NCBI GenBank assembly: GCA_037200525.1
Contig: JBBCGG010000001.1
Location: 972,501-1,036,500, forward strand
From: Methylocella sp.
GTDB taxonomy: Bacteria > Pseudomonadota > Alphaproteobacteria > Rhizobiales > Beijerinckiaceae
Length of the DNA stretch: 64,000 nucleotides
Direction: 5' to 3'
Positions 7,473-41,710 of the stretch are shown here, one piece after another (within the stretch, counting starts at the first letter, position 1; each line of letters begins with the position of its first letter). The notes below the pieces were generated by a model, which was not told the DNA's origin, made no database searches, and saw only the letters and a list, made by a program, of their open reading frames with translations. The position numbers were made by a program, and so were the translations under genes.

Positions 7473-8361
7473 GAGTCCGTTTGACAACTATGGGTGGGTT
7501 ATCCGGCGGATCAACAAGCCGGCCATAGCGACCTCGATCATGGCGTGAGAGACGTCTATCCGGGCCTCGTAGTCTCGGACGAGACGCCTGTGGCGGGTCA
7601 TCCATCCGAAGGTCCGTTCGACGACCCATCGTCTCGGCAGAATCACGAATGCGGCCTCGGTACGCCGCACGATCTCGACGGTGAAGTCGAGAAAAGCCGC
7701 TTTGTCGAGCAGTCGCTGGCGATCGTAGGCGCTGTCGGCGAACAGGTGTTTGACCCGCGGCCAGCGTTTTTGGATGGCCTCAAGAACGGCTTGCGCGCCT
7801 GTGCTGTCGGCGATATCGGCCGTGGTGAGATTGACCATCAGCAGACGTCCGTCGGCGTCGACCGCGATATGGCGTTTGCGCCCGACGATCTTCTTGGCGC
7901 CGTCGAACCCGCGTGTTCCCTGCGGCGCCGGGGCTTTGACGGACTGGCTGTCGAGCACCGCCGCGCTCGGTTCGGCGTTGCGGCCCGTCCGCGCGCGGTC
8001 GATCATCAAGGCGACATCGTGAAGGGTGCGAAACATCAGACGCCGGGTCAGGCGGCGAAACCACCAGTACACCGTCTGCCAGGGCGGGAAGTGAACCGGC
8101 AGCATCCGCCACTCACATCCCGACCGCACCAGATACCGGATGGCGTTCAAAACTTCGCGCAGGTCTGTCCGTCGGGGGCTTCCGGTCGCTCCCGCCTTCG
8201 GCAGAAACGGCTCGACCGAAGACCATTCCTCATCAGTCAGGTCGCTCGGATAGCGCTTCGTCTTCTTCTCAATCTTGGCCATTCGGCCACGGCTCTTGGC
8301 TGTCCACATCGAAAGCGTGAATCATAACCAAAGAACCATGTCAAAGTTGTCAAACAGACTC
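7473..8361 (-). mobile_element. Complete IS5-family insertion sequence, 889 bp, TAA target duplication
   Basis: The ends are GAGTCCGTTTGACAACT at 7473 and its near-perfect inverse at 8361 (one mismatch in 17). A TAA duplication flanks both sides (7470-7472 and 8362-8364). The element carries one intact transposase gene. It sits inside the TIR-like gene on the same strand. The intact frame and matching ends suggest a recent insertion. A decayed end of the same lineage occurs at 41586-41708. Confidence 0.95.
7488..8282 (-). CDS. IS5-family transposase
   Basis: A 264-residue DDE transposase, taking the ATG at 8282 (MAKIEKKTKRYPSDLTDEEW) as the start. The N-terminal DUF4096-like region (LTDEEWSSVEPFLP) is followed by the DDE domain: first aspartate in VLDSQSVK, second in HLFADSAYD, and glutamate in WVVERTFGWM. 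It is full length for single-frame IS5-family transposases. It lies within intact terminal repeats, so the element may still be mobile. Confidence 0.95.
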   Translation of the reverse strand: MAKIEKKTKRYPSDLTDEEWSSVEPFLPKAGATGSPRRTDLREVLNAIRYLVRSGCEWRMLPVHFPPWQTVYWWFRRLTRRLMFRTLHDVALMIDRARTGRNAEPSAAVLDSQSVKAPAPQGTRGFDGAKKIVGRKRHIAVDADGRLLMVNLTTADIADSTGAQAVLEAIQKRWPRVKHLFADSAYDRQRLLDKAAFLDFTVEIVRRTEAAFVILPRRWVVERTFGWMTRHRRLVRDYEARIDVSHAMIEVAMAGLLIRRITHP

Positions 8362-8677
8362 TAAGCGCATAACCATGCTCGATGCAGACATTGGGGTTGG
8401 GCGCCTTCTTCCCTCCAATCCGCTCGGCAACGTAGGTTAGGTCTGCCAGGAAGACGGCGGCCTCATCGATCTTGGCGAAGATCGTCTCCATGATCGGCGG
8501 CGAGCCGGGGACGTCGCGGGTGTCGCGATCGACCTTGATCTCGCGATCGGCAAGATCTACATCGGCGTCCGCCCGCAGCTCGCCGATCGCTCGCTCAAGA
8601 CAGGACTCCACGAAGTTCCTTCCCAGTCGGTTCGGCGTGTCGCTCTGCCAAGAAAAGAAGACGTGCTGCGGCATGAT

Positions 8678-10518: not shown

Positions 10519-11721
10519 TTATTGACGAGCGGCGCCTTTCACGATCTCGGCGTATTGTAGCGCCGCCTGGACGCTGCTTGCGCGGTTGTAGTGCTCTTCC
10601 GTTACCCTTCGGTCGGTATGTTGCAGGACGGCGCTGGCGAGGTTCGGGTTGTCTCCGGCGTAGGCATAAATCGCGGAAGCTGCGCAGGCCCGAAAGAGAT
10701 GGGGGCTGACTTCGACGCCGAGCGTCAATAGAGTGGTCGCGGTTATCGCTAGCTCGACGCTGGAATAGCTCATGCGCTCGCCTGAGTTCGACGACAACCA
10801 AAGCGGGCCCGCGGCTGCGTCCAGCGTCTCGGCGGAGGACAATGCGGCGTCTTCGCCGTTGGCGAGCAAATGCCCGATATCAGACATTGCGCCATTCTCC
10901 CTTCTCGCAACCGCCCTCAGCACAGGACGGTGGATCAAAAGATACGAAGCGATCGCGGCGTCGAGGTCGCGCGGCACGCGGCGTTCGTCCGGCCGACCGC
11001 TTTTGGTGTGCTTGCGATCGAGCACAATCCACCACCGCGACCAAATTCTGCGAAAACTGGTCTGCAGATCGAGGGCGACGAAGTTCTTAAGACGGATCGG
11101 ACAGAGCGCAAGAAGGGCGATCATCACGCCGTTGCGGACCTGCCGGGCTCGGCGCAGCGGCGTGAGGGCCGGGTCGTCGTTCGCCTCTTGCACGAGAGCG
11201 AGCCCGGCTTCAACGAGGCGATCAGGATCAACGACGCGATGGCTTTTTGAGAGGGGCTGCATCACCAAGGCAAGGTCCTTCTCAATCTCCCCGAGCCACG
11301 CAAAGTCTCGTGCGGGGTTAAGCAATTCGGAGGCCCGACGCACCTTATATATCGTACCGGCGAGAGTGACCGAGCCGATCCGCGATCGGAGCTCCTCTAG
11401 AAAACGCTCAATGTGGTCGGGGGTCACCTGCCCAGCGGCCGCAGCGTCCGGTTCAAAGCGACCGGTCCGCATCAGATGATCGACAAAATAACCATAACGG
11501 CGGGCGAGATCGCCCTGCGTAATGCGAGCCAGATGCGCGCCGGCGCCGCCCTTGCGGAGGCGAACGCCCGGCGCGATCGCGCGCGCCCAGGCTGCGCGGT
11601 CAGCAATCGACCATTCGGCGATCGGCGCTGAGCGGATTTGCGGCGCTTGAGGACGGCGCGGCGGAGAGGCGGCTAGACGTCCTTCTCCGCCAGAGGGTTG
11701 ATCTGACGCTAGTTTATGCAT
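10519..11721 (-). CDS. Tyrosine recombinase, second gene of a two-recombinase module
   Basis: A phage-integrase-family recombinase of about 400 residues. Visible catalytic elements are the first arginine region (TPLRRARQVRNGVMIAL), the HLFRACAASAI box near residue 350 and the tyrosine in EEHYNRASS. The ATG chosen at 11721 overlaps the stop of the upstream recombinase by eight bases (ATGCATAA), indicating translational coupling. It carries an N-terminal SAM-like core-binding domain. The partner resembles the gene pair at 35.3-39.0 kb, so this is a repeated module type. It probably acts with the first recombinase on DNA ends near the tRNA-Gly fragment. Confidence 0.88.
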   Translation of the reverse strand: MHKLASDQPSGGEGRLAASPPRRPQAPQIRSAPIAEWSIADRAAWARAIAPGVRLRKGGAGAHLARITQGDLARRYGYFVDHLMRTGRFEPDAAAAGQVTPDHIERFLEELRSRIGSVTLAGTIYKVRRASELLNPARDFAWLGEIEKDLALVMQPLSKSHRVVDPDRLVEAGLALVQEANDDPALTPLRRARQVRNGVMIALLALCPIRLKNFVALDLQTSFRRIWSRWWIVLDRKHTKSGRPDERRVPRDLDAAIASYLLIHRPVLRAVARRENGAMSDIGHLLANGEDAALSSAETLDAAAGPLWLSSNSGERMSYSSVELAITATTLLTLGVEVSPHLFRACAASAIYAYAGDNPNLASAVLQHTDRRVTEEHYNRASSVQAALQYAEIVKGAARQ

Positions 11722-13456
11722 CGTCTTCCTCCTCGGCGCGCCGAGCGCGCAGATTGCGGACGAGATCGCCATAGACCTCGCTGGCGTGCGTGGTTTCCAG
11801 ACCGATATAATTGCGGATCGTGACTTGTACGGTGCGGTGGCCGAGAAGCAGGCGGACGAGCTCGTAGTTACCCGGTTGGTGTTTTAGGATGATCGCCGCC
11901 GACAAATGGCGGAACTGGTGAACGGTGAGGCGAAGGCCGATCGATTTCTCGATGCAGGCGGTGATCTGACCGCTCAGCGTCGCAAGACATTTGTGATCGT
12001 CCCGTTCACCCGGAAACAGCCACAAACCATCCGCTTGGTCGACGAGAGCGGGGCGATAGTTGAACAGATAGTCGTCGATCAGCGCCGTCAGTTCGGCGTC
12101 CAGAGGAAAGTCGAGGTTCACGCGGTTCTTAACGTCATAGCCCGGGAAAACGAGCCGGTAAGGCGCTTTCGGGCCGCCGCTGCGAATGAGATTTTCGCCG
12201 ATGCGAATTTGCCCGAGGTTGGCGCGGCGAATCGGAGCGACGTTCAGAATACCGATCGCTGCCGCCATCTGAGCCCGCACCGCCGCCTTGACCGGAGAGG
12301 AATATGACGCCTCTTTGGCCTGATCCATGAGAAGGCGCGGCAGATGGTGCAGCGCGCGCCAGGCGTCGCTTTGCATAAAGGTTCGGATGGCGGCCAAATT
12401 TTTGTCCGTCATCGCCGCGGGACTATGGTGTTCGAGTTCGGAACGCATGTCGTCGAGCGCTTCAAACTCATCCTCAGACAAACACTGGGCGTTCCGCGCG
12501 AGGCTGACGAAAAGCCGAGCCAGGTCAATGGTGAAAATTGACGGCTGCTCGCCGCTCTTTTCCCAATAGGCGTCGAGAATGCGGCGGCTAACGTCTGGAT
12601 GCAAAAGAGAGGCGAGCGACGTCAGTTGCTCCATGCCGACGCCGATTCGCGTCGCCGTGCGCATCGCCGCCTCGAGCATGGCGCGGCGACCGCGGATCGT
12701 CGTTGCTTTGGCCGGGCGCAGCCGCCTGCCTTTGGAAGTCTTGCGGACGCGCGTGAGAGAGGTCAAATAGGCTTCGATGTCGTCGCGCAATCCGATCGGA
12801 TATTCCGCCCAAGGCGGGAACGCTTCGCATTGTCGAGACGGGGGCTCGACCAGAAATCGGCTTGGCCATCCGGCAACGGTTCGAGCGCGATCGTTCCAAT
12901 GATGCGCCAATACTCGCCGCGCCGCCGCGTCCGCAGAGAGCGATGTCGTGCGCAGGCGATAAGCAAAGAAAGCGTCGATGACCGCTTCGTCGACGCAGTC
13001 CGGCGAGATATCTCGCCCTGAGCAGTATCGCATCAGCGACGCTAGGCGCGTCCGTTGAGGCGAACTCGGGCACTCATCGTACAACGCCCGCCATTCCGGC
13101 GTCAGCGGGGCTCCGCGCGCTGGCGTCTGCTTTTCTTTGTGCATCCAGGCCAGCGCGGCGCGCACATTCGATGCGTGATTACTCAGCGTTTTCTGGGTTA
13201 CTCCAAGTCGAACGGCTTTCAATTGGCTGATTTGAATGCGAACAGCCGACCACCGCGCCGGAATCAAAACCATTGGCCGGTCGAGGACGGCGGCTATTCG
13301 GCGCAGCGAGCAGGGCCAGTGTCGCCTCAGGTCGTCCGACAAATCTGGATCGCCGGCGATCGCGATGACGGCGTCCTCGAAAGAGGGCTCTATCAAAGCG
13401 ACTGCGGAGCCGAGCGAACTTGCGGCAACGGAAGCCAGGGGACTGAGATCGTTCAT
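11714..13456 (-). CDS. Tyrosine recombinase, first gene of a two-recombinase module
   Basis: A 580-residue tyrosine recombinase, longer than usual because of an extended N-terminal region of about 350 residues. The catalytic domain shows an arginine region near APIRRANLGQ, the HxxR box HQFRHLSAAI near residue 515, the LLLGHRTVQVT stretch and the nucleophile in RNYIGLE. The start at 13456 is the first in frame and lies downstream of an AT-rich region with an inverted repeat. The next recombinase overlaps it by eight bases. A paralogous long recombinase is at 36392-39029. Tn554- and RIT-type elements also use tandem recombinases, but I do not claim membership in either. Confidence 0.88.
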   Translation of the reverse strand: MNDLSPLASVAASSLGSAVALIEPSFEDAVIAIAGDPDLSDDLRRHWPCSLRRIAAVLDRPMVLIPARWSAVRIQISQLKAVRLGVTQKTLSNHASNVRAALAWMHKEKQTPARGAPLTPEWRALYDECPSSPQRTRLASLMRYCSGRDISPDCVDEAVIDAFFAYRLRTTSLSADAAARRVLAHHWNDRARTVAGWPSRFLVEPPSRQCEAFPPWAEYPIGLRDDIEAYLTSLTRVRKTSKGRRLRPAKATTIRGRRAMLEAAMRTATRIGVGMEQLTSLASLLHPDVSRRILDAYWEKSGEQPSIFTIDLARLFVSLARNAQCLSEDEFEALDDMRSELEHHSPAAMTDKNLAAIRTFMQSDAWRALHHLPRLLMDQAKEASYSSPVKAAVRAQMAAAIGILNVAPIRRANLGQIRIGENLIRSGGPKAPYRLVFPGYDVKNRVNLDFPLDAELTALIDDYLFNYRPALVDQADGLWLFPGERDDHKCLATLSGQITACIEKSIGLRLTVHQFRHLSAAIILKHQPGNYELVRLLLGHRTVQVTIRNYIGLETTHASEVYGDLVRNLRARRAEEEDDA

Positions 13457-15299: not shown

Positions 15300-15692
15300 T
15301 TATTGAATCAGTCCTAGCAGCTTCTGTCCGGCCGGGCTCGAAAGCTCTGCCGCATCCAGAGTGCCATCGTTGTCTGGGTCGGCTTTCTTGAATGCCGCTT
15401 CGATCTGCGCCGCATATTCGGCCTTGTCGACTGTGCCGTCTTTATCAGGATCGGCGCTAGTGAAGTCTGTCAGGACGGGTCCCGCCTCTTTGGCGTCAAG
15501 GGTGCCGTCGCGATCGGGATCAAGCTCTGCAAACTTCTTGGCGCCGGCGGCCTGCGCTTCGGCGAGGCTGACAGTGCCATCACTGTCAGGATCAAGTAGC
15601 TTCATATTCGCTGTGGCGGAAAAGGCGGGAAGCGCGAGCAAGGAGGCGCTCAGCGCCAAGATGGAAATGTAAGCGGCATTCTTTCGCAACAC
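15300..15692 (-). CDS. lanM: Lanmodulin (periplasmic lanthanide-binding EF-hand protein)
   Basis: Taking the GTG at 15692, this is a 130-residue protein with a signal peptide (ISILALSASLLALPAFSA) and four EF-hands at residues 34-45, 58-69, 81-92 and 105-116. Each loop begins D-P-D-x-D-G-T, with the proline at loop position 2 that marks lanmodulins, and gaps of only 11-12 residues separate the hands. The C-terminal SSPAGQKLLGLIQ also matches the lanmodulin ending. Lanmodulins bind lanthanides with picomolar affinity in methylotroph periplasm. EF1 has Ser at position 9 instead of Asp, so it may bind more weakly; EF4 has a full Asp set. GTG is preferred because GGAG precedes it by six bases. The gene is adjacent to the mxa cluster and divergent from a sensor kinase. 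Confidence 0.9.
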   Translation of the reverse strand: MLRKNAAYISILALSASLLALPAFSATANMKLLDPDSDGTVSLAEAQAAGAKKFAELDPDRDGTLDAKEAGPVLTDFTSADPDKDGTVDKAEYAAQIEAAFKKADPDNDGTLDAAELSSPAGQKLLGLIQ

Positions 15693-15695
15693 GAT

Positions 15696-15725
15696 AATCT
15701 CCAATCTTTTTTCTTGGAGATTATA
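15696..15725 (-). promoter_or_regulatory. Palindrome overlapping the lanM -10 box and ribosome site
   Basis: AATCTCCAA (15696-15704) and TTGGAGATT (15714-15722) are perfect inverse arms around a 9-base T-rich loop. On the minus strand the first arm overlaps a consensus -10 box (TATAAT, 15725-15720) and the second contains the lanM Shine-Dalgarno GGAG. If transcription starts after that -10, only the second arm is in the mRNA and the palindrome would act as a DNA operator. If it starts further upstream, the hairpin would hide the ribosome site. No good -35 was found. Confidence 0.55.
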
Positions 15726-16074
15726 GCATAACACCTAATTTATAAGGAGTTAATCCCTACATAAGCGAATTACTCAGGAATTTTTCTATAAATACATGAA
15801 TTTTTACACGTTTCGCAACGGCAGCCTCTTCGTCTACCAATTTTTGCGCAGCCGTTGCCCAGGAAACAATGACGCCAGCGGCTAGTTATCCAGCCCGTCG
15901 CGATCCAAGCGCCGTTCCCAGGCGGTTTGCCAGCCTCACTTTTTCATATGTCGGGGGTCCAGATTAGCTCCCCGCAGTATAGGTATTTATCTAAGTTCGC
16001 CTGGACATAGAGAAGTCAGCTGTGATTAAACCCTAACACGAATAGAATTATTGTACTTGCGCTTTTTAATCTTA

Positions 16075-16090
16075 AACGTAATGTTACGTT
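16075..16090. promoter_or_regulatory. 16-bp palindrome AACGTAATGTTACGTT, candidate operator
   Basis: Perfect dyad of two 7-base arms around TG. Its centre is about 350 bases upstream of the kinase start and 390 upstream of lanM. NarL/LuxR-type response regulators commonly bind such inverted heptamers, so the regulator at 18016 is a candidate ligand; this is an inference. Confidence 0.5.
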
Positions 16091-16325
16091 GGTTATGTCA
16101 AGCTGAGAGTTAAGCAGTAATAGAGCGCCTCGTGGGCGCGAGCGTCATCGCCGCATGTCAAGATGAAGTATATTTCGACGATGCGGAGCGGCGAGTGAAT
16201 AGCGCCCTCGCAACTCGAATTTGCAAGCAGGTTCTGAAGGCGAGGATTGTCTTGCGCCAATCTATCGCCCTCAGTTCGTAGAGCCCCACGCGCTCCTCCG
16301 GCTGAGCATCCCCAACGTGGCGGCG

Positions 16326-16368
16326 GCCCGGCGCGGAATTGGGCAGATTCCGCGCCGGGCGCATTTTT
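16326..16368 (+). terminator. Strong rho-independent terminator with no upstream gene
   Basis: A 14-bp perfect stem (GCCCGGCGCGGAAT with ATTCCGCGCCGGGC, loop TGGGCAG) is followed by GCATTTTT on the plus strand. No plus-strand gene lies between 15735 and this point. It ends about 65 bases before the sensor kinase start, so it could terminate a small RNA or attenuate the kinase operon. Confidence 0.8.
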
Positions 16369-16435
16369 CCGATGCAATGGATAGGGTTGAATCCTGTCTA
16401 GCAGGACGTTGAGAAGGAGTTCCGACGAAACTGTG

Positions 16436-18019
16436 ATGCCGCGCGCCGACGTATCTAAGATCCCCGAGCCAGAAACGGCCCTCGAAGACCAAGCGATTTC
16501 CGTCAACCCCGCAGCTAGAATGGATGCCCGGTTCGCCTTCGGGCGACCGCCCTCCACACCGCGCCGAAAAAACACGGTCGTGCGCGGTTTGATGTGCAGC
16601 ATAGCGCGAGCGCGACTTTTTATCTTCCAATCGATTCGATATCGGATTCTTGGGGTCGCAACATGTATCACCGTCGTGGTCTATGCGGCGATTTCCGGCA
16701 TCCTCATCGTTCATGCGCGCACTGCAACGCGCATAGAAATTACGCGTGCACTTGACGCGACTGAGCAACTGGTCGTCGACGCCGCCGATCAAGGCGGCGG
16801 CCGTGAAGGCGCGTTCATCAAAGAGCTTGCGCGCGGCCTCGTTGCACCGCGTCACGTAGCGATTTCAGTGCTAGATCACGACGGAAAGCCGGTGCTCTTC
16901 GCCAATCCGGCTCCGACTGCCGATAGGCTCCCAAGCGACTGGGACCCAGCGCCCGGATGGTTCTATCGTTTGATCGCAGCGAAGTCGAATGTTCGTTCGG
17001 TGGTGGTGCATCAAGATGGAGCTGTTGTCGGAACTATCGTTCTTGCTAGCCGTCCGGACGATGAAATTGCCGAGGCCTGGGCAAACTTTCGATCCTTCGC
17101 AGGAATTGGAGCGATTGGCATTGCGTCGATTTTGCTGATTCTTGGCGCTGCCCTTGGTGAATTGCTGGCCCCTCTCACTAAAGTTTCCCAAGGCCTGGAG
17201 ACGCTGGAAGCGGCAGAATACGCTGTTCGCCTTCCGCGCTCGTCAGTGAAGGAGCTCGATGTCATTTCATCGCGCTTCAATGCGCTCGCGAGCGCATTGG
17301 CGACGGCCCGAAAAGAAAACACGCGGCTTGGTTGTGACCTCGTATCGCTGCAAGATGAAGAGCGGCGGCATTTGGCTATGGAGCTCCACGACGAATTTGG
17401 TCCATGCCTATTTGGAATCAAGGTCTATACAGACTCCCTGGAGTTCCTTGTTGCTTCACAGGCACCTGCGCTCGCGTCGCGCGTCAAAGATAGGACGCTG
17501 GAAATCATGGCGGTCGTCGATAGACTCAACGCCATCAATCGATCGATCATGAGGCGCCTTCGTCCGATGGCGCTAGGAAAAATGCCGCTCTCTGATTTGC
17601 TGTCCGATCTCGCCGACGATTTTCGATCCAAGGCGCCAAATGTTTCGGTCGTATTGTCTTTCGCGACGTCGCGCCCGAGTTTTGGGGAAAGAACTGATCT
17701 GACGGTTTATCGATGCGTGCAGGAGGGCATCGCCAATGCGCTGAAACATGCAGATCCGCGCGTCGTGGAAGTATCGGTTCTGGAGCACTCCGTTGACTCT
17801 TTGGTGGTCGAAATTTGCGATGATGGAGTCGGCCTCGCGCCTGATGCGCGGCAGGGATATGGCCTAACTGGCATGCGGGATCGCGTGAAGGCGATCGGCG
17901 GCAGCATCAAGTTCGATCGCGCCCTCCGCGGCGGCACGGCAGTGTCCATTTGCCTGCCATTGCGTCTCGAAAATGATTGCGCTCCAGAATCGCCTGAAGT
18001 GGGACAAAAAAAGGAATGA
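16436..18019 (+). CDS. mxaY: MxaY/MoxY-like sensor histidine kinase
   Basis: A 527-residue NarL-type sensor kinase. A transmembrane segment near residues 75-95 (GVATCITVVVYAAISGILIV) opens a periplasmic sensor domain, a second membrane segment (IGAIGIASILLILGAAL) leads into HAMP, and HisKA_3 (HLAMELHDEFG, phospho-acceptor His318) precedes HATPase_c (DDGVGLAPDARQGYGLTGM). The start is uncertain: ATG 16436 was chosen, but TTG 16409, GTG 16433 and later ATGs are possible. It overlaps its regulator by four bases. In Paracoccus (MoxYX) and a gammaproteobacterial methanotroph (MxaY), kinases at this position control methanol dehydrogenase expression. The name rests on type and context, not on alignment. 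Confidence 0.72.
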   Translation: MPRADVSKIPEPETALEDQAISVNPAARMDARFAFGRPPSTPRRKNTVVRGLMCSIARARLFIFQSIRYRILGVATCITVVVYAAISGILIVHARTATRIEITRALDATEQLVVDAADQGGGREGAFIKELARGLVAPRHVAISVLDHDGKPVLFANPAPTADRLPSDWDPAPGWFYRLIAAKSNVRSVVVHQDGAVVGTIVLASRPDDEIAEAWANFRSFAGIGAIGIASILLILGAALGELLAPLTKVSQGLETLEAAEYAVRLPRSSVKELDVISSRFNALASALATARKENTRLGCDLVSLQDEERRHLAMELHDEFGPCLFGIKVYTDSLEFLVASQAPALASRVKDRTLEIMAVVDRLNAINRSIMRRLRPMALGKMPLSDLLSDLADDFRSKAPNVSVVLSFATSRPSFGERTDLTVYRCVQEGIANALKHADPRVVEVSVLEHSVDSLVVEICDDGVGLAPDARQGYGLTGMRDRVKAIGGSIKFDRALRGGTAVSICLPLRLENDCAPESPEVGQKKE

Positions 18020-18651
18020 CGCAAGTTCTTGTTATTGACGATCATCCGATTGTTCTGCAGGGGTGCCGACGCGTGCTCGAGGACCTCGGCATTTCGGACG
18101 TGCGCGACGCCAGCACTCTGGCTGCGGGCCATCGATCCCTTAGCAAGGCGACGCCCGATCTCGTCATTCTTGATTTAGGCATGCAGGGGCGAAGCCTTGG
18201 CGGCATTGCGCTGATCGAGCAGATCCGACGAGAGCAGCAAAAATGCGCGGTTCTCGTGTTCAGCATGCATAGCGATCCGAGCATCGTACGAAGCGCGTTC
18301 AACGCGGGCGCGAATGGATACCTTCTAAAGGACACAACCCCAGCCGAGTTGAGGGAAGCGATCAAAAAAGTGCTGAGCGGACGAACCCATCTGGCGCATG
18401 CTTTGGCGCTGGAGCTGGCATTGCCCGGAACCGGCAAACAGTCGGATCAGTTGCAAAAACTTACATCGCGCGAGCTCCAAGTTCTTTCTCTTCTCGCCGA
18501 GGGCCATCAATACGGGTCGATCGCGACGATGCTGGGCGTCAGCTACAAGACCGTCGCTAACGGCGTCACGCAGATCAAAGCTAAACTAGGGGTGACGACG
18601 CTGCCGCAGCTTATCCGAATCGCGGTGAAATCAATGCAATCCCCCACATGA
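18016..18651 (+). CDS. NarL/LuxR-type response regulator, partner of the mxaY-like kinase
   Basis: A 211-residue response regulator with an N-terminal receiver (acidic pair D8-D9, phospho-acceptor Asp53 in LVILDLGM, Lys in GYLLKDTTP) and a C-terminal LuxR helix-turn-helix (LTSRELQVLSLLAEGHQ, then SIATMLGVSYKTVANGVTQI). It starts inside the kinase stop codon (ATGA), so the two form one translationally coupled operon. It converges with the mxa cluster, with only 23 bases between stops. Candidates for control are mxaF, lanM and its own operon. It corresponds to MoxX or MxaB of other methylotrophs, but which cannot be settled by eye. Confidence 0.88.
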   Translation: MTQVLVIDDHPIVLQGCRRVLEDLGISDVRDASTLAAGHRSLSKATPDLVILDLGMQGRSLGGIALIEQIRREQQKCAVLVFSMHSDPSIVRSAFNAGANGYLLKDTTPAELREAIKKVLSGRTHLAHALALELALPGTGKQSDQLQKLTSRELQVLSLLAEGHQYGSIATMLGVSYKTVANGVTQIKAKLGVTTLPQLIRIAVKSMQSPT

Positions 18652-18674: not shown

Positions 18675-19643
18675 TCAAGGCTGCGAAGACCCTGTGATCG
18701 CAAAGGCTCGCGGTCCATCTCCGACCCGGAGACGGTTCAACTCGCGGCGCTGCCGAAGATCAATGACGGATACGTCGCCGGAAAACCAATTTGCGACATA
18801 GGCCAGTCCGTTTGCAGCGCAAAGCACGCCCTCGGGATAACGACCGACATCCACGGTGGCGACGACGGCAAGGCTCCGCGCGTCAATAATCGACGCTGTG
18901 TCGGAATGTTGATTGGCGACCACAACTGTCTTTCCGTCGGGCGTCACTGCGATGCCATAAGGCATCGCGCCGACGCGAATCCGCGCAATCGATTGCATCG
19001 TCTGCGTATCGATGACAGCGAGATCCGAGCTTTGCGCATTCGCCACATAGAGCCGCTTATCGTCGGGAGAAAGCGCTAGCGCGAAGGGCGCGGTCCCGGT
19101 TGCGACCGAAGCGATAACTCGCATGGCGGCGGCATCGACGATGCTGACGGCGCCGCTGTCTCTATCCGCCACATAAAGGCGAGCCCCGTCCGCCGCGACT
19201 GCCAGGCCGGCGGGGTAACGCCCGACGGCCGCCCCCGCCATTAGGGCGCCAGTCTTGGCGTCAAGTTGCGTGACGACGCCACGGTTCCAGTCATCCACGT
19301 ACAGAAAGCGCCCATGCGGATCCGCAGCGATCCCGAACGGCGTCCCAGGATAAGAGAATGTCTTGACGACGCGGCGCGCATCGGCGTCGATGACGCTGAT
19401 CGCGCTATGGTCTGGATGCGTAACGTAGATGAATTTGCCGTCGGCGGAGGGCGCTATCATGGCGGGAGCGTCCGGCGCCGATATTCTGGATGATACCTCG
19501 CCGGCTGCAATATCGATTTGCGCTACGGTGCCGTCATCTTGGCTGACGACATAGAGGTAGGAGCCTGCGCCGGCCATAGCGCAATGGGCGACGGCGTCGA
19601 TGCAGATGACAAGGCAAAGCCATATCCACCGGACGCCGCGCAT
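18675..19643 (-). CDS. mxaE: YVTN beta-propeller protein at the end of the mxa cluster (MxaE position)
   Basis: A 322-residue secreted beta-propeller with a signal peptide (WLCLVICIDAVAHCAMAGA) followed by about seven repeats of roughly 42 residues of the type KRLYVANAQSSDLAVIDT. Such YVTN propellers accompany PQQ-dependent alcohol oxidation systems. It begins three bases after the mxaD stop, so it is in the same operon. In Methylobacterium the gene after mxaD is mxaE, whose role in methanol oxidation is unclear; I assign the name from position and am less sure of it than of the fold. No mxaH follows here, because the operon meets the regulator gene. Confidence 0.65.
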   Translation of the reverse strand: MRGVRWIWLCLVICIDAVAHCAMAGAGSYLYVVSQDDGTVAQIDIAAGEVSSRISAPDAPAMIAPSADGKFIYVTHPDHSAISVIDADARRVVKTFSYPGTPFGIAADPHGRFLYVDDWNRGVVTQLDAKTGALMAGAAVGRYPAGLAVAADGARLYVADRDSGAVSIVDAAAMRVIASVATGTAPFALALSPDDKRLYVANAQSSDLAVIDTQTMQSIARIRVGAMPYGIAVTPDGKTVVVANQHSDTASIIDARSLAVVATVDVGRYPEGVLCAANGLAYVANWFSGDVSVIDLRQRRELNRLRVGDGPRAFAITGSSQP

Positions 19644-19646
19644 CGG

Positions 19647-20159
19647 TTACTTCGCCTCTAGCTTCTTTTTCAGTCCATCAAGCCCCGTCCTGAAGAAATT
19701 GGTCATGGCTTCCCGTCCCGCCGCGTCGCTGAGATTATCCGGTGGTTCATTGCCAGTGTCGCCGCGGTAGAAGCGCCCATACCATTCGACCTCGCTTTGG
19801 TTTCCGTTCGCTGGACGGACTACCAAAGTGGCCGAGTATGAACTGACGGGCAGCGCGTCGAGATCTGGAGTCAACATTCTGTAAGTATAGGTCATCTTGG
19901 TCGGATCATATTCGTCGACCTCTTCTGTAAGCGTCTTTCCGCTCTGGAAGGTCAATACTCGCTTGGCGTTCGACCCCTCGCTCTTCGTCACAAAGGGGTC
20001 CCAGTTCGAAATGCCCGCGAAGTCGCCCACAACCGCCCAGACGGTTTGAGGATCGGCCGCGATTGTGACGGTCTCGTCGACTTTTTGCGGCGTCGGTCCG
20101 TGCGCGCTAGCAGGCAGTGCGGCCGCCGCCGCGATCGTGGCGATGAAAAAGCGTCTCAT
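19647..20159 (-). CDS. mxaD: MxaD, periplasmic SRPBCC protein
   Basis: A 170-residue protein with a signal peptide (RRFFIATIAAAAALPASA) and an SRPBCC/polyketide-cyclase fold (VDETVTIAADPQTVWAVVG). In other methylotrophs MxaD is periplasmic and stimulates electron transfer between methanol dehydrogenase and cytochrome cL. The ATG at 20159 overlaps the mxaL stop (ATGA) and places the signal peptide at the N-terminus, so it is preferred over the longer frame. Confidence 0.9.
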   Translation of the reverse strand: MRRFFIATIAAAAALPASAHGPTPQKVDETVTIAADPQTVWAVVGDFAGISNWDPFVTKSEGSNAKRVLTFQSGKTLTEEVDEYDPTKMTYTYRMLTPDLDALPVSSYSATLVVRPANGNQSEVEWYGRFYRGDTGNEPPDNLSDAAGREAMTNFFRTGLDGLKKKLEAK

Positions 20160-21169
20160 GCAGCAACTCTCCAATGTGGTTCTTTAGAATCGATTTGACG
20201 GCGGGTTTTCCGGCGTCTGACGCCCCGTTCGAAAAGCGGCGCGAAACCATAAACGGCGACGAGCGCAGCCAGGGCGAAAGCCGCCAAAACAGGACGCAAG
20301 TCGAGCGTGCTCGGCGTTGGATGCGGGGTCGCCGTCGCTGACAGCGCATCGACGAGGCCGGCCGCGTCGACAAGATGCGTATAAGCAAGCCCCGTCTTGG
20401 CGCCGAGCTCCTTAAGATAGGCTTCGCGAACCGATGACAGGTGCTCGTTGCCGACTGCCTTTACCCCGCCGAAGGGCGCGTTGCGTGGATTGTAGCCCTC
20501 GCGCGTCGATGCGTCGGGAGGCGGCAGGCCAAAGCGATTGTCTTGGGCGACATCGTCCGGGCCATAGAAACCGATCTCGCGGCCTGCGTCGTCGAGCTTT
20601 GGAATTGGCGAAAGGGAATATCCGCCGACGCCGACGATCAATCCCTTCACAGCGCCGGGTTTGCCTTCAAAGGCGGGACCACCGCTCCAGGAGAGGGGGG
20701 GCGCTTCCTGTCCATCGGTCAGGAACGCAAGGTCGCTGTCGAGATCGCGGGCCAAGTTTATGGCGCTATATAGGCCCTCGGCGATATGGCTGTCCCCTTC
20801 CCAGGCCATCCGCCAATCGAGCGCGGCCAACGCCGCATTGACCGGCGCAAAATTCTCGCAGACATCGACCGGATCAAAGAGCAGGAAAGCGCGGCGCTCG
20901 GTGAAGATCCCAAGACCGACAGTCGATGGGCATGGCAGCGCCGCTATGGCCTGCCGCATGACTCGCCTCACAGCGTCGAGCCGACTTTCGGGTTTGCCGT
21001 CCAACGCGTAGTCGCGCGTGTTCATGCTGCCGGTGACGTCGGCGATCACAAGAACCCGGTAGGAAGTACCTATCCGCGCCACATGCGGAGCCGCAAGCGT
21101 GGCGAGCAACAGGCAAAGAGCGAGCATCAAAAGCCAGAGGCGAGGATCACGCAATGTCCTGCGACTCAT
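20156..21169 (-). CDS. mxaL: MxaL, von Willebrand A domain protein of MDH maturation
   Basis: A membrane-anchored VWA protein of about 337 residues. A hydrophobic N-terminal segment (LWLLMLALCLLLATLAA) is followed by a metal-ion adhesion motif (IADVTGSMNTRDY) and ends with a second membrane helix (VLAAFALAALVAVYGFA). MxaA, MxaK and MxaL are needed for calcium insertion into methanol dehydrogenase in Methylobacterium. The start at 21169 overlaps the mxaK stop by four bases, as throughout this operon. Confidence 0.9.
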   Translation of the reverse strand: MSRRTLRDPRLWLLMLALCLLLATLAAPHVARIGTSYRVLVIADVTGSMNTRDYALDGKPESRLDAVRRVMRQAIAALPCPSTVGLGIFTERRAFLLFDPVDVCENFAPVNAALAALDWRMAWEGDSHIAEGLYSAINLARDLDSDLAFLTDGQEAPPLSWSGGPAFEGKPGAVKGLIVGVGGYSLSPIPKLDDAGREIGFYGPDDVAQDNRFGLPPPDASTREGYNPRNAPFGGVKAVGNEHLSSVREAYLKELGAKTGLAYTHLVDAAGLVDALSATATPHPTPSTLDLRPVLAAFALAALVAVYGFAPLFERGVRRRKTRRQIDSKEPHWRVAA

Positions 21170-21786
21170 GGCAGACCTTCCGGTTTGCCGGGCACTTCGG
21201 TCCACAGCTTCTTCGGATTGAGCGGCTCGTGATTCTCCTCGCCCGCACCGCCCGAGGGAAAGTCTCGGATCAGACGGTCGGCGACGTCAGTATTATATTT
21301 GGCGTCCCAATCGGTGGGATCGAGCCGCAATGCACGGCGATAGTCTTGTCGCGCAAGGCTGACGAGCGGAATCGCCGGTTCGATTTTGCTTCTGACTATA
21401 TCCTCCATGGCGATGCGCAAACGCGCGTTCGCCAGATTGTAATGCAGGGCGGCGCGAAGCTTCGGCGAACCCCTTTGGTCGACGGCTTCCGCAAACGGTT
21501 CGGCTTCGTCGAGGCGATCATGTTCGAGCAGGAAGGTTGCGCGCGCGAAAGCAACGGGCGCTGCGGCGTCGACAGCGACGAAGATGTCTTTTCCCGCCGC
21601 CAGTGCGGCAATGGTGCGGTTGCGCAGCCAGTCCGTGGTCAGCATCGCGCCAGAGATAAATAACGCAATCGCGCACGCTGCCGCGATCGCGATCAACAAC
21701 GGCCCTTTGGCGCGTCCCCAATAGCGGCGCGCGCGATTGAGCATCTCGTTCATGGCGCGGCGCTTCTGCGGTGACGCGGGGATCAT
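21166..21786 (-). CDS. mxaK: MxaK, membrane-anchored maturation protein
   Basis: A 206-residue protein with one N-terminal membrane helix (LLIAIAAACAIALFISGAML) and a periplasmic TPR-like helical region (LRAALHYNLANARLRIAMED, then DYRRALRLDPTDWDAKYN). Position between mxaC and mxaL identifies it as MxaK, required for calcium incorporation into methanol dehydrogenase. It overlaps both neighbours by four bases. The longest in-frame start is used. Confidence 0.88.
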   Translation of the reverse strand: MIPASPQKRRAMNEMLNRARRYWGRAKGPLLIAIAAACAIALFISGAMLTTDWLRNRTIAALAAGKDIFVAVDAAAPVAFARATFLLEHDRLDEAEPFAEAVDQRGSPKLRAALHYNLANARLRIAMEDIVRSKIEPAIPLVSLARQDYRRALRLDPTDWDAKYNTDVADRLIRDFPSGGAGEENHEPLNPKKLWTEVPGKPEGLP

Positions 21787-22799
21787 GAGGCCGCTCCATG
21801 TCGGGTTCTATCGGCTCGAGTCAACCCCACCTCGGCGAGCTTGGCCAGAACCAGAAGAAGCATGGCCGTCGCGGCGATCATATAGGGCGCTTCCGAAATG
21901 TCTTGGCGCGGGATGCGCTCGACATATCGGATTGGATTGGTCTCCAGCCGTCCGATCTCAGCGAGGGCGTCTGCGATCGCCTGCGGGCTCTCGGCTTCAA
22001 ACGCCCGATATGGGATCTTGAGGCTCTTGAAGAAAAGATCGAGGTGGCGTTCGGGCATCTCCTGTGGCGTGTCCGCCACTCCTGGGCCGGGCAGATCGGA
22101 AATGCCGGAGCTGTTGGCCGTACGCAAGAAAAGCCAGTAGATGTGGGCATTGTCCTTGGCGATGGCGGACCGCAATGCATCTTGCGTACGCCGGTCGATG
22201 ACCGCGGCTCCATCCGACACGAAGAGGACGACGCGCGACGCAATTGGCGTGCCTTCCTCGAACATCCCCAGAGCCATGGCGAGGCCGCGGCCGACATCCG
22301 TGAGAGCTAACGCCGGACGACCAATCGCGTCGATCGCCGCGAGTATCGCGTCGCGATGCTCCGTGATCGGAATGACGAACATCGGCAAAGTGGAAAAGGC
22401 GACCATGCCGTACTCGTCATGCGGGCGCTCGAGTACGAAATCCTTGAGGATGCGTCGCGCCGCTATCGATTTAGATGTTTCGCCTCCGGTCGGAGCCCTG
22501 CCGGCGAAGGTTTCGTCCATGCTCTCGCTACGGTCGATCAACAACACCACATGGGCGCCCCTGCCGATGCGCTCGATGGTTCGCTCAAGCCGATAAGGTC
22601 CAGCGAGGCCGAGAACGATGGCTCCAATCGCCGTGACCGCTGCGAGCCGGAGGCCAATATCGACAATTCGAGAAATGAGGTCATCAGGCGCTTCAGCAAG
22701 CGATGGAAATAGAACGCGCTGGAACGGCGACGCAAAGAATGGAAGCAGGGCGAGGGGGAGAAGCCAGAGAACGGCCGGCGTGGCGAATGCGTAGTTCAT
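21783..22799 (-). CDS. mxaC: MxaC, VWA-domain membrane protein of MDH maturation
   Basis: A 338-residue BatA-like protein: an N-terminal membrane region (FATPAVLWLLPLALLPFFA), a VWA domain with the metal site DRSESMDETF, and a C-terminal membrane helix (MIAATAMLLLVLAKLAEVGL). MxaC is a member of the RSACKL set and pairs with the MoxR ATPase MxaR, as BatA/BatB pair with MoxR elsewhere. It overlaps mxaA and mxaK by four bases each. Confidence 0.9.
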   Translation of the reverse strand: MNYAFATPAVLWLLPLALLPFFASPFQRVLFPSLAEAPDDLISRIVDIGLRLAAVTAIGAIVLGLAGPYRLERTIERIGRGAHVVLLIDRSESMDETFAGRAPTGGETSKSIAARRILKDFVLERPHDEYGMVAFSTLPMFVIPITEHRDAILAAIDAIGRPALALTDVGRGLAMALGMFEEGTPIASRVVLFVSDGAAVIDRRTQDALRSAIAKDNAHIYWLFLRTANSSGISDLPGPGVADTPQEMPERHLDLFFKSLKIPYRAFEAESPQAIADALAEIGRLETNPIRYVERIPRQDISEAPYMIAATAMLLLVLAKLAEVGLTRADRTRHGAAS

Positions 22800-23707
22800 G
22801 CCGCTCGCCTTTCCGCCGCCGCCAGTCCGTCTCCAAAGGCGACAAGCATTTCTGGCGGGAAGTTTTTGGCCGCCTCTGTCGGATTTGCCCTAAAGAAGGC
22901 CTGGCGCGAACTCTGAAAAAACAGATTGAAGTCGGCGGCGAGGCTTTTGAACTGCGGATGCCGATCGAGAAAGACCGGCACATCGTCCGCAAGAACGCGT
23001 TGGCCGGCGGCGGCGTCGACGGCGCGGTGAAGGATCAGCAGTGCGGGGAGATAGGCTCCCTCCCCGTCCTTGCGCAAGATGCGGCGAACCAACTGCGCGG
23101 CTGCGCTGAAGGGGCGGCCGGGACGCTTCCGGAAAGGCGGCCATGCGCGATCATACGTCAGAGCAAGGGCAGTGAGGAATGTCGCGAGCGCGAAGGCGGC
23201 GGTCCATGCGCCGAGCGGCCGGAGATCAATCTGATGCGCGGGGGCGTCGGGCCGCAAATACTCTGCCGGATCTGCGACCGGAGGAGGCTCGACTTCGCGC
23301 AGCGGCGAGACGCCGAAGGACCAAGCGTCGATCGTGGCCGTAGCCATCTGCTGGCCATTCATGAAGGTGAGGCTGAATTGCGGAATCTCGAGCCGGCGCG
23401 GGTCTAGCGCTACGTAAAACAGCTGATAAGTGAGGTCCAGGCGGTAACGCCTTCCCCTCGCAAACGACGATTGACCAAGCTTAACCTCGCGCAGCTCGAG
23501 CCAATAGGTCACCGGGCCGATCTTCGGCAGCGACCCATCTTCCAAATGGAAGGCGGGATCGACGGTGACGTCGACCGTCCGCTGAATTATATCGCCGACG
23601 AAATACCCGAACGGCCGAGGCGAGTAGGCTTCAATCGATCGCACCTGCGCAGCTGCAATCGCCATCAGAACGAAGTAGAATAGCGCTCCAGCGACTCCGC
23701 CTCGCAT
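22796..23707 (-). CDS. mxaA: MxaA, calcium-insertion factor for methanol dehydrogenase
   Basis: A protein of about 303 residues with an N-terminal membrane or signal segment (GVAGALFYFVLMAIAAAQV), a periplasmic beta-rich region, a membrane helix (AFALATFLTALALTY) and a cytoplasmic C-terminal domain. In Methylobacterium, mxaA mutants make inactive methanol dehydrogenase that lacks calcium. The ATG at 23707 was chosen because it opens the signal segment and lies eight bases after the mxaS stop; the frame upstream of it belongs to mxaS. Confidence 0.87.
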   Translation of the reverse strand: MRGGVAGALFYFVLMAIAAAQVRSIEAYSPRPFGYFVGDIIQRTVDVTVDPAFHLEDGSLPKIGPVTYWLELREVKLGQSSFARGRRYRLDLTYQLFYVALDPRRLEIPQFSLTFMNGQQMATATIDAWSFGVSPLREVEPPPVADPAEYLRPDAPAHQIDLRPLGAWTAAFALATFLTALALTYDRAWPPFRKRPGRPFSAAAQLVRRILRKDGEGAYLPALLILHRAVDAAAGQRVLADDVPVFLDRHPQFKSLAADFNLFFQSSRQAFFRANPTEAAKNFPPEMLVAFGDGLAAAERRAA

Positions 23708-23714
23708 AACCGCC

Positions 23715-24563
23715 TCAGGCGCCGAGTAAATGGCGGGAAAGGCGATCCACATCGAGCCGATCCACGATCGAGAACGGCGTCCGCCCATAAAACGAGAACA
23801 TGCGACGGAGAGCCTCCCGACGTTCAGCCGCCTCCGTCCGCCATTTGTCCCGCAACGCCGGGCGCATCGCAACAAGCCGATTGCGCCCGCTCTCAAGATC
23901 GCGCAGCGACAGAAGACCCCATGATGGTAGATTCTCCTCCTCCGCGGAATCGGCGATTATGATTGGCGCTAGATCATGGCGCGCAAGACCGGCGAGAGCC
24001 GCCTCTATCGCTGTTAGCGGCAGATGAAAATCCGAAATGAGGAACACAAGCTTTCGTAGTCCGGAGATCAGCTCGCCGGCCTTGGCGAGCCCTGCAGCGC
24101 TGCGGCCGGTGGGGACGAACTCGGCGAAGCGGCGGGATGTTTCCACATCAAGGCCGCGGCGGCGGGTCGCTGGAATGAAGAAATCGTCGCGGATCTTGTC
24201 GTCGCAACCGATGAGGCCAAAGGCATCGCCAAAGCGCCTCGCCGAGCCGGCCAGAGCGACGCAAAGATCGGCCGCGATGTCGATCTTGCGGGCGTTGCCT
24301 TCAAACGCCATCGATCCGGAGAGATCGACGACAGCGTAAACCGCGATGGCCGTCCGCTGTTCGAAACGGCGTACGTAGACTGTCTCGAAAGGATCGCGAA
24401 GCGTGGCGCGAAGGTTAATGCGGCGCGCATCGGGCTGCTGCAGAAATGTGACGTCATCGCGAAAAATGCCTGCGCCTCCAACGTCGCGCCCGCGATGAGC
24501 GCCGATGATCGGGCCTTCGGCGCGCCCGCGCGGACGATAGGTGATTTCTTGCGCCGGCATCAT
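23715..24563 (-). CDS. mxaS: MxaS, DUF58 protein of MDH maturation
   Basis: A DUF58-family protein of about 282 residues beginning MMPAQEITYRPRGRAEG at 24563. The ATG overlaps the mxaR stop (ATGATG over TGA). The VWA-like core shows VVDLSGSMAFEG, a metal-binding pattern. DUF58 proteins work with MoxR-type ATPases as chaperone pairs, which fits its place after mxaR. No membrane segment is seen, so it is likely cytoplasmic. Confidence 0.88.
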   Translation of the reverse strand: MMPAQEITYRPRGRAEGPIIGAHRGRDVGGAGIFRDDVTFLQQPDARRINLRATLRDPFETVYVRRFEQRTAIAVYAVVDLSGSMAFEGNARKIDIAADLCVALAGSARRFGDAFGLIGCDDKIRDDFFIPATRRRGLDVETSRRFAEFVPTGRSAAGLAKAGELISGLRKLVFLISDFHLPLTAIEAALAGLARHDLAPIIIADSAEEENLPSWGLLSLRDLESGRNRLVAMRPALRDKWRTEAAERREALRRMFSFYGRTPFSIVDRLDVDRLSRHLLGA

Positions 24564-25618
24564 GGCGCTGGGACGCTGGCGAAGGCCGCCCGACACAGAT
24601 CGCGAACGATCGCATCGCGGCGGAGCTCGTAGATCGGATCGAGAAAGATCCGATGCGCCATGGTTTCCACAAAGACTTCGCGAATGTCTTCTGGCACGAC
24701 CATGTCCCGATCTTCGAGCCAAGCGCGTACGCGAGCGGCTTGCACCAGAAAACTCAAGCCGCGAGGGCTCGCTCCGCCTTGAACGAGGCGGCGCATGTCG
24801 ATGTCGCCGACCTCGATGCCGGCCTCAGCGGGTCGGCGCAGGGCTGACCATAGATCGAGCACATATCGTTGGAGGCTGTCGCTTGTGCGAACGCTCCTCT
24901 GGATCAAGCGCCCGATCTCGCCAAGCTTTCGATAATCCAGCACTCCTTCTTTGACGGAAGCGACGAGCGCATCAATGTCGTGGTAGCGCGGTTCAAAGAT
25001 AAGCTGGCGTCGAACCTCAAGGTCGGCGGGAGTCTCGATCCCAATTTCCATGAAGAAACGGTCGCGCGCCGCAGCGGGCAGTTCGAACGTCTCCTCTTTC
25101 TCAACGCGATTTCGATCGGCAAAAATGACGAGATGCGGAAAGGCGTATTCCTTATTGAAGGCGGAGACGCTGCGCTCCGCCATTAACCTCAGCAGCAAGG
25201 AATGAACCTGTGGGCGAGCTCGATTGATCTCGTTGAAAAAAAAGATCGACAAGTCATCGCCTTGGCGAAGAACCGGACCTGGTTCGACGCGCGGCCGACC
25301 ATCCTCACTCAGAAACGTTTGATAGATGAGATCGCTGGGCATCAGGTCGATCGCGCCTTCGACGCGCTCATAGGCGCCTCCGATCGCGCGAGCGACGCTC
25401 CGCAGAAGAGTTGTCTTGCCGACGCCCACATCTCCTTCGAGCAGAACATGGCCGCGCGCAAAAGTGGATATGGTCACGAGACGGATTGCGCGCTTTTGGC
25501 CGAGGACCGCTTTGTTCACCTCACTCTCAAACTGCAGCGCTCCGACGCGCCAGTCGGCAAGGGTTGCGTCGGCGCTTTTCTCTAGTTCCATCGTCAAGGA
25601 AATGCCTTGCTTGTGCAT
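24560..25618 (-). CDS. mxaR: MxaR, MoxR-family AAA+ ATPase
   Basis: A MoxR AAA+ ATPase of 352 residues (or 343 if the inner ATG at 25591 is used). Walker A is GDVGVGKTTLL, Walker B is FFFNEINRA, and the C-terminal lid domain follows. This is the founding family for maturation of methanol dehydrogenase in Paracoccus and Methylobacterium. About 166 bases separate it from mxaI, so the maturation genes may have a second promoter or partial termination. Neither start has a strong ribosome site. Confidence 0.92.
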   Translation of the reverse strand: MHKQGISLTMELEKSADATLADWRVGALQFESEVNKAVLGQKRAIRLVTISTFARGHVLLEGDVGVGKTTLLRSVARAIGGAYERVEGAIDLMPSDLIYQTFLSEDGRPRVEPGPVLRQGDDLSIFFFNEINRARPQVHSLLLRLMAERSVSAFNKEYAFPHLVIFADRNRVEKEETFELPAAARDRFFMEIGIETPADLEVRRQLIFEPRYHDIDALVASVKEGVLDYRKLGEIGRLIQRSVRTSDSLQRYVLDLWSALRRPAEAGIEVGDIDMRRLVQGGASPRGLSFLVQAARVRAWLEDRDMVVPEDIREVFVETMAHRIFLDPIYELRRDAIVRDLCRAAFASVPAP

Positions 25619-25784: not shown

Positions 25785-26090
25785 TCACTCGGCGGGGATA
25801 TTCTTTACGTCATATATAAACTTGCCGGTCTTCACGAAATTATTGACCCGCAATTTGTTTCGCGCTTCCATGTCTCTTTCCGAAACGCTCTGCTTCACAA
25901 CTTCATTTGGATCGAGCTTCGGGTCGTATTTCGAACCCGCGATGATGTCCGGATAGCCCGGATGCGGCTCCCAGCAGATTCCCGGGGCCGAACAATTCTG
26001 ACCGTCATAGGCGGCGGCGGGGTGTGAGAGCGAGAGGGCAAACACCGTTGCGCAACCGCCGAACAGCATTAAACGACCGATCTTGGACAT
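25785..26090 (-). CDS. mxaI: Methanol dehydrogenase small subunit
   Basis: A 101-residue secreted protein with a signal peptide (LFGGCATVFALSLSHPAAA) and the mature start YDGQNCSAPGICW, whose two cysteines form the known disulfide. The rest is lysine-rich and highly charged, as in MxaI, which wraps around the large subunit in the alpha2beta2 enzyme. XoxF-type dehydrogenases lack this subunit, so its presence supports a calcium enzyme. Length is normal. Confidence 0.96.
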   Translation of the reverse strand: MSKIGRLMLFGGCATVFALSLSHPAAAYDGQNCSAPGICWEPHPGYPDIIAGSKYDPKLDPNEVVKQSVSERDMEARNKLRVNNFVKTGKFIYDVKNIPAE

Positions 26091-27753: not shown

Positions 27754-27901
27754 GAATTCTCCTGTAATTCTCGATCGCTCAATCAGGCCGGCTGAATGCA
27801 AGGCGTCGTCAGAATTCTCTGTCGACAAGCCGGCTTCTCCACGCCCGCCGCCGCTGTGAAGCGCTTTGCGGCGAGCGTGGCGGCAGTTAGCAGGGCGCTT
27901 A

Positions 27902-41552: not shown

Positions 41553-41585
41553 GCCAGAAACCGTCCATCGAAACGGGTCAACTCC

Positions 41586-41708: not shown

Positions 41709-41710
41709 TA

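Follow-up and report, generated by a model that had tools for sequence, protein, structure and literature searches.

A lanmodulin gene adjoining an MxaY-like sensor pair and a calcium methanol dehydrogenase cluster as a probable lanthanide-switch locus

Within a 64-kb stretch of bacterial DNA (hereafter the window), the gene for the lanthanide-binding protein lanmodulin (lanM) is divergent from an MxaY-like kinase and NarL-type regulator pair. This pair is convergent with a gene for a YVTN beta-propeller protein, which is followed by mxaD, L, K, C, A, S, R, I, G, J and F of a calcium methanol dehydrogenase (MDH) cluster on the minus strand, placing lanM and the kinase pair at the mxaD end of the cluster. 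With a probability of about 0.68, we read this arrangement as a lanthanide-switch regulatory locus, with lanM sharing the site for the sake of co-regulation. LanM, the kinase and the regulator all resemble proteins of Methylocella silvestris with a published response to lanthanum. An initial annotation had described a compact locus in which lanM diverges from the sensor pair next to mxa, and the coordinates and strands agree with this description. The central features are as follows.

15300 to 15692, minus strand: lanM (clade A), 130 aa, signal-like N-terminus, four EF-hands; 159.2 bits, match to 6mi5
15693 to 16435, no strand: divergent intergenic region between lanM and the kinase gene, containing TGCTATAAT and an 11-bp inverted repeat around the lanM ribosome site
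15729 to 15756, minus strand: lanM promoter box GGATT-N17-GTGTTA, upstream of lanM
16326 to 16360, plus strand: terminator-like hairpin, 15 pairs then a T-run, just upstream of the kinase gene
16436 to 18019, plus strand: mxaY-like sensor histidine kinase, from HisKA_3/HATPase_c, identities and trees
16709 to 17095, plus strand: LapD/MoxY-like periplasmic segment of the kinase, from a 45-kinase alignment, a model and a match to 4u64
18016 to 18651, plus strand: mxaB/moxX-like NarL-type response regulator, Response_reg and GerE

The open reading frame at 15300 to 15734 (minus strand) scored 159.2 bits against the NCBIfam profile NF053806 (lanmodulin LanM), above the equivalog cut-off of 135, and its best sequence match in the Protein Data Bank (PDB) was Mex-LanM (6mi5, E 1.1e-30); for the LanM and mxa identities alike, the profile scores exclude chance. 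Four EF-hand loops, DPDSDGTVSLAE, DPDRDGTLDAKE, DPDKDGTVDKAE and DPDNDGTLDAAE, lie at positions 48, 72, 95 and 119 of the 144-aa frame with spacers of 12, 11 and 12 residues, and all four have proline at position 2. PMC10232371 describes LanM by four EF-hands, fewer than 200 residues, at least one pair fewer than 14 residues apart and Pro-2 in at least one EF-hand, and the window protein shows the four EF-hands, the length, the spacing and Pro-2. The likely start is the GTG at 15692 rather than 15734, because GGAG ends 6 nt upstream and a predicted signal-peptide-like N-terminus follows. Aligned with lanmodulins, the protein falls inside the family, as the initial annotation had proposed, with 73% identity to LanM of M. 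silvestris TVC and 73% to that of G076, a genome that we took to be M. silvestris BL2 (its kinase is 473 aa long, as in PMC9291206). A short and poorly resolved LanM tree grouped the window protein with those of M. silvestris TVC, G076 and G144 with a Shimodaira-Hasegawa-like approximate likelihood ratio test (SH-aLRT) value of 94. Judging from sequence, the window LanM is the orthologue of the lanthanum-induced Msil_0271 of M. silvestris, and LanM together with the genus group, g1, points to kinship of the organism to Methylocella.

Two residues stand out in the EF-hands: position 9 of EF1 is serine, and in the alignment to 6mi5 position 1 of EF4 is aspartate where Mex-LanM has asparagine. 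We take the latter position to be, probably, the site altered in an engineered LanM carrying N108D. This N108D protein has been described (PMC11561317). Given Ser-9 in EF1 and Asp-1 in EF4, the metal stoichiometry of the window LanM may differ.

The kinase carries HisKA_3 and HATPase_c domains and the regulator Response_reg and GerE domains, all above their Pfam cut-offs, bearing out the sensor pair of the initial annotation. The two frames share four bases, and we place the kinase start at the ATG at 16436, the first start codon of the frame being at 16409. The alignments that had been suggested gave 33% identity over 459 columns to BL2 MxaY and 30% over 437 columns to Paracoccus MoxY for the kinase; the regulator is 46% identical to BL2 MxaB and 35% to Paracoccus MoxX. 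A tree of kinases, built without the paralogous kinases of the window's own genome, placed the window kinase in a 17-row clade with Methylocella MxaY and the kinases of genus group g9 (SH-aLRT 99), the long window branch being flagged. After addition of MoxY and Azospirillum sequences and removal of two long rows, an 18-row fork had an SH-aLRT of 82 and the window branch was still long; we are unsure of the exact place of this kinase.

Two helices in the AlphaFold model of the kinase (residues 76-128 and 217-267) would be placed in the membrane. The periplasmic segment was modelled with a predicted local distance difference test (pLDDT) score of 85.9, and the PDB entry that it matched best was 4u64 (E 7.8e-5, template modelling score 0.57), a LapD orthologue's periplasmic output domain, with weaker matches to LapD 3pjv and to the sensor domains of WalK, CitA and CusS. 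LapD_MoxY_N scored 21.0 bits, under the cut-off of 25; among 10 relatives scanned, four were over the cut-off (BL2 MxaY at 26.2), four under it and two without a match. Eight residues of the segment, E110, R148, H149, P182, W184, E219, E222 and W224, are invariant in all 45 aligned kinases.

The remaining genes of the locus form a complete mxa cluster, with mxaF, J, G and I followed in order by R-S-A-C-K-L-D.

18675 to 19643, minus strand: YVTN beta-propeller protein at the mxaE position, from profile matches and synteny
19647 to 20174, minus strand: mxaD, PF10604 113.7 bits and synteny
20156 to 25618, minus strand: mxaL, K, C, A, S and R, from synteny (tblastn, HMM) with further mxa clusters
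25785 to 26090, minus strand: mxaI, MDH small subunit, PF02315 126.7 bits
26192 to 26767, minus strand: mxaG, cytochrome cL (MoxG), TIGR03872 over cut-off
26827 to 27924, minus strand: mxaJ (MoxJ), TIGR03870 over cut-off
27902 to 29788, minus strand: mxaF, calcium MDH large subunit, TIGR03075 (PQQ dehydrogenase) over cut-off

The initial annotation had named the cluster mxaFJGIRSACKLD with a gene E. MxaF, MoxJ, MoxG and MxaI are each over their cut-offs; mxaR, S, A, C, K, L and D were assigned by co-linearity with relatives, under the names that we take these genes to bear. As for gene E, a propeller gene does occupy the mxaE position, and from this position we infer that it may be MxaE of M. 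silvestris. MxaF shares 71-75% identity with its counterparts in the mxa clusters L167, L174, L185 and L193, and the other two MDHs of the genome, which are 50% and 48% identical to MxaF, are XoxF-like and would be named XoxF. With MxaF and two XoxF-like MDHs in one genome, there is a switch to make.

Lanthanum responses of related systems have been published. When M. silvestris was supplied with lanthanum, LanM (Msil_0271) went up 39- and 26-fold while MxaB and the Mxa proteins went down; in its xoxF5 deletion strain, mxaY was truncated in six of the six sequences checked, which the authors regard as suggestive rather than proof (PMC9291206). Without lanthanum, M. buryatense MxaY acts as an activator of mxa and mxaB and as a repressor of xoxF, and the E147G change, outside the kinase domains, makes MxaY constitutive (PMC5018670); E147 may correspond to E219 or E222 of the window kinase. 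We propose that MxaY and MxaB would sense, directly or not, lanthanide availability in the periplasm and, when lanthanide is scarce, would activate the adjoining calcium MDH cluster mxaF to mxaD. The putative periplasmic lanthanide buffer LanM would be regulated in the opposite sense, and lanM would be kept at the locus because it is part of the same decision. Transcription of lanM would start from a promoter of its own that carries the box GGATT-N17-GYGTTA (with N18 instead at the genome's second lanM). MxaB or a partner regulator may act at this box, and co-location would serve co-regulation.

The box was found as GGGATT-N17-GYGTTA upstream of lanM in the window, G076, M. silvestris TVC (G040) and G144, and with N18 about 42 nt before the frame of the second lanM (lanM-B) of the same genome. 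The product of lanM-B is 43% identical to that of lanM-A, and its gene neighbours encode TonB, ExbB, a PepSY-TM protein and a TonB receptor. In the window, GGATTNACTCC-N11-GTGTTA has 2 exact sites against 0.01 expected with two mismatches allowed. A regular expression (T or G, then GGATT-N16..18-GYGTTA) matched seven distinct places in the fetched loci and the window, namely the four lanM sites above (window, G076, TVC and G144), window position 30539, the genome's own lanM-B and, in L188, a place with no relation to these; the same letters after one mononucleotide shuffle yielded three places. The box GGATT-N17/18-GYGTTA is thus common to both lanM paralogues here and to three orthologues of the genus, and is new.

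Other elements occupy the gap between lanM and the kinase gene. A perfect 11-bp inverted repeat at 15660-15692, ATAATCTCCAA-N9-TTGGAGATTAT, encloses the lanM ribosome site and overlaps TATAAT; none of 200 shuffles matched it, and it was not seen among the 11 other lanM upstream stretches compared. We rejected the idea that the gap is necessarily one shared promoter, as the terminator-like hairpin at 16326-16360 separates the kinase gene, although shuffles give as many such sites (one site here against 1.6 expected, which is weak by count). The region 16100-16440 has a fold z-score of -3.66, and an 82% copy of 16200-16315 occurs at G000:C1:3478928-3479041, a short way past the paralogous kinase at 3476828, whereas none of 14 further genomes of the genus gave a match. 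This structured stretch before the kinase is a possible small RNA or leader; a search of Rfam with positions 9000-36000 gave no match at E up to 1.

A second copy of the box marks a lanM relic at the opposite end of the mxa block.

30540 to 30567, plus strand: lanM box, second copy, preceding the pseudogene
30614 to 30914, plus strand: decayed lanM pseudogene, divergently upstream of mxaF; 66% identity over 319 columns to the intact lanM

The match between pseudogene and intact lanM scored 112 bits, against 29.7 for the best of 60 dinucleotide shuffles and 29.7 for the best other non-lanM place, and all three frames are broken. It lies on the mxaF side, where lanM is found in G144, G089 and G215; with the intact lanM beside mxaY, this means that lanM has at some time occupied each end of the mxa block. 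A box-bearing lanM pseudogene divergently upstream of mxaF is new. lanM may have moved, or may have been duplicated with one copy lost. As the second box is about 750 bp from mxaF and before the pseudogene, it may be a relic of the pseudogene and not an mxaF site.

We then considered how widely these genes are neighbours. A LanM search of 397 genomes of the family gave 142 with a match, and lanM loci were taken from 92 of these, leaving out most of genus group g9 and weak matches; the kinase and MxaI searches covered 50 family genomes. MxaI was found in 30 of the 50, and lanM lay within about 10 kb of mxaI in five of these 30 (the window at 10.1 kb, G144, G198, G089 and G215); in this count G103 lacked a LanM match, and no position was listed for G003. 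In the four loci other than the window, lanM adjoins the mxaF end of the cluster, and it runs divergently in all of them except G198, where it is co-directional. Among 22 Hyphomicrobium genomes, LanM matched in 14, of which 12 reached at least 133 bits; MxaI was also present in 11 of these 12, and lanM was within 10 kb of mxaI in 8 of the 11. In six of the eight a NarL-type regulator gene lies 132-361 nt before lanM at the propeller end.

Hyphomicrobium resembles the window in that the mxaD/propeller end holds lanM together with a NarL-type regulator gene (L263, L265, L268-L271 and L273), but differs in that the regulator in six of these seven loci has no adjoining kinase and reads into lanM. 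A kinase is present in L273, with the order kinase-regulator-lanM at the propeller end, and in L264, where the kinase-regulator pair lies between mxaF and lanM. The idea that the layout stands alone was accordingly dropped: the locus joining LanM, sensor and mxa that the initial annotation had pointed out is real, but regulator-lanM (once kinase-regulator-lanM) in Hyphomicrobium and mxaF-side lanM in four family genomes show that it is not unique.

Away from mxa, an MxaY-like kinase gene was within 10 kb of lanM in 29/34 genomes of g18, 7/9 of g42 and 3/7 of g34, a group in which a regulator gene was within this distance in 7/7; for g9, g22 and, its lanM-A set aside, the window's own genus, with several loci on short contigs, the counts were 0/9, 1/10 and 0/13. 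We take g18 to be Methylocystis, from an mxa order equal to that of a named plasmid; its sample comprises 34 of the 36 genomes with a LanM match, some loci being short contigs. In five g42 loci the kinase frame is 25-116 nt from lanM, distances that are lower bounds because they are counted from the first start codon of each frame, and this kinase belongs to the clade kept at mxa in g18. As to the g42 mxa clusters, L296 showed no kinase over the 8 kb covered past mxaD, and L297, whose sequence ends 0.8 kb beyond mxaD, showed none over 9 kb past mxaF. In four g42 loci (L219, L223, L225 and L226), two paralogous MxaY-like kinase/regulator pairs adjoin each other and lanM. One g18 locus, L206, carries on one strand genes for a kinase, LanM, a secreted-looking protein, a propeller and an ABC-type ATPase, the secreted protein and the ATPase being putative assignments made by reading. 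Across 35 LanM genomes with a known number of HisKA_3 domains (2-6 each), an MxaY-like kinase gene was within 10 kb of lanM in 21, against 0.65 expected and at most 6 in 200,000 simulations. In the search for lanM near the kinase pair that the initial annotation called for, made here within 10 kb, many g18 genomes had lanM beside a paralogous pair away from mxa. Gene orders differ between lineages, and the association has therefore been kept or remade through rearrangement.

Comparison with known systems shows which parts of the layout are shared. M. silvestris BL2 has, besides the similar LanM, kinase, regulator and mxa genes, a pair (Msil_0484/0485) after mxaD and the propeller gene, but this pair runs with mxa, whereas the window pair is inverted with lanM divergent from it. 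Paracoccus moxZYX likewise has MoxY and MoxX types beside calcium MDH genes, with RH, WF and DEIAE.W motifs in common with the window kinase, but lies upstream of moxF, with no lanM among the 12 annotated genes of a 13-kb stretch. The lut cluster of Methylorubrum extorquens encodes the same LanM family with a proposed periplasmic lanthanide role (PMC9291206, PMC11845868), but there lanM is with TonB receptor and ABC transporter genes, not mxa. M. buryatense shares the kinase family and its proposed effect, which is to raise calcium MDH and lower XoxF (PMC5018670), but is gammaproteobacterial, whereas a survey of methanotroph genomes found LanM only in Alphaproteobacteria (PMC12482762).

Several observations weigh against co-regulation by this pair. 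The layout of lanM, kinase and mxa occurs in one of 13 lanM-bearing genomes of the window's genus; no kinase was found within 10 kb of the fetched lanM loci in the other 12 (three of these loci are on contigs of 9.9-11.9 kb, and one extra G076 match was not fetched), and in G076 lanM is about 211 kb from mxaI. The regular expression found no box in the other mxaF or lanM loci compared, nor at any working mxaF promoter, and therefore does not show an MxaB site; an ungapped comparison of the 418 bp upstream of lanM with those upstream of mxaF gave no shared motif above shuffles. The 35 genomes of the distance count were chosen among LanM carriers and are related, and are thus not independent events. 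Over the 50 genomes, the top-scoring relatives of the window kinase were the unlinked g9 kinases (277 bits), the mxa-linked G103 kinase (272) and others, not BL2 MxaY (246). The g9 kinases that group with it are, we presume, possibly MxbD. At the Methylobacterium aquaticum lanM promoter the lanthanum response was lost without MxcQE and kept without MxbD (PMC9260416), a result that does not favour direct, simple signalling from this kinase family to lanM. Finally, LanM of Methylosinus trichosporium OB3b was represented by a single sub-threshold peptide and listed as not detected (PMC12482762).

We consider it improbable that LanM is instead the ligand of the kinase, metal-loaded or metal-free LanM docking on the LapD/MoxY-type domain of MxaY and setting its activity; the initial annotation's suggestion that the kinase senses LanM or metal is speculation. 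LapD binds the periplasmic protease LapG through the output domain as which the periplasmic segment was modelled (4u64, with 3pjv weaker), and this counts for a LanM ligand, as do the eight residues invariant in 45/45 kinases and the short kinase-lanM distances in the five g42 loci. After deletion of lanM in M. aquaticum, mxcQE expression becomes lanthanum-dependent and the lanM promoter is active without lanthanum, and the authors of that work assign LanM a partial place in the switch (PMC9260416); the constitutive E147G MxaY of M. buryatense, if equivalent to E219 or E222, would also fit (PMC5018670). However, the M. buryatense switch and the survey's restriction of LanM to Alphaproteobacteria mean that MxaY can work without LanM, and no such kinase lies within 10 kb of lanM in 9/9 g9 genomes and in 12/12 other genomes of the window's genus. 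We therefore rank co-regulation ahead of LanM as kinase ligand. A bolder form, in which LanM and MxaY would be one sensing device, the LapD-like domain reading the metal state of LanM, a box under the MxaB branch closing the loop, and lineages rebuilding the linkage because it is a functional unit, seems to us a similarly long shot.

It is also unlikely that history alone made the genes neighbours, a lanM copy having been brought by rearrangement or a mobile element and remaining uncoupled from the kinase. The surroundings do look mobile: recombinase-like pairs in the same order bracket the 13.5-35.3 kb block (10519/35340 at 24% and 11714/37602 at 27% identity), spanning 10519-13456 and 35340-39029, with 11714-13456 alone over a Pfam integrase cut-off; an integrase (32165), a serine recombinase (33623) and an IS transposase (7488) are also present; and 8238-8365 and 41585-41712 are linked by a direct match of 129 bp (83%), one end beside an IS transposase gene. 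The dead lanM on the other side of mxa indicates turnover, and signs of lanM transfer and plasmid copies have been published (PMC12482762). Against this, lanM recurs beside this kinase family or beside mxa in several lineages and in differing gene arrangements, and the window lacks a tRNA gene.

Within the mobile-looking left flank, an AAA_13 ATPase gene (PF13166) at 3694-5946 lies beside uncharacterised open reading frames, and could be a defence or nuclease gene.

It is known that mxaY lies beside mxa and that lanM is found in the lut cluster; the sensor pair by mxa is present here as the initial annotation stated, but has been described in M. silvestris and in strains of Methylosinus and Methylocystis (PMC9291206), and what is unusual is that lanM joins it. 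For lanM joined to mxaY and mxa, its recurrence in Hyphomicrobium and g18, the box and the pseudogene, we found no report in the open-access literature, a result that does not prove that none exists. The literature leaves open how lanthanide availability acts on the calcium and lanthanide MDH genes, and the MxcQE and MxbDM kinases still await identification of their ligands (PMC9260416). Taken together, the recurrent neighbourhood of lanM with MxaY or mxa, the three-copy box and the LapD-like domain make a link between LanM and the switch testable, and open the concrete questions of whether LanM binds the kinase domain and whether MxaB binds the box.

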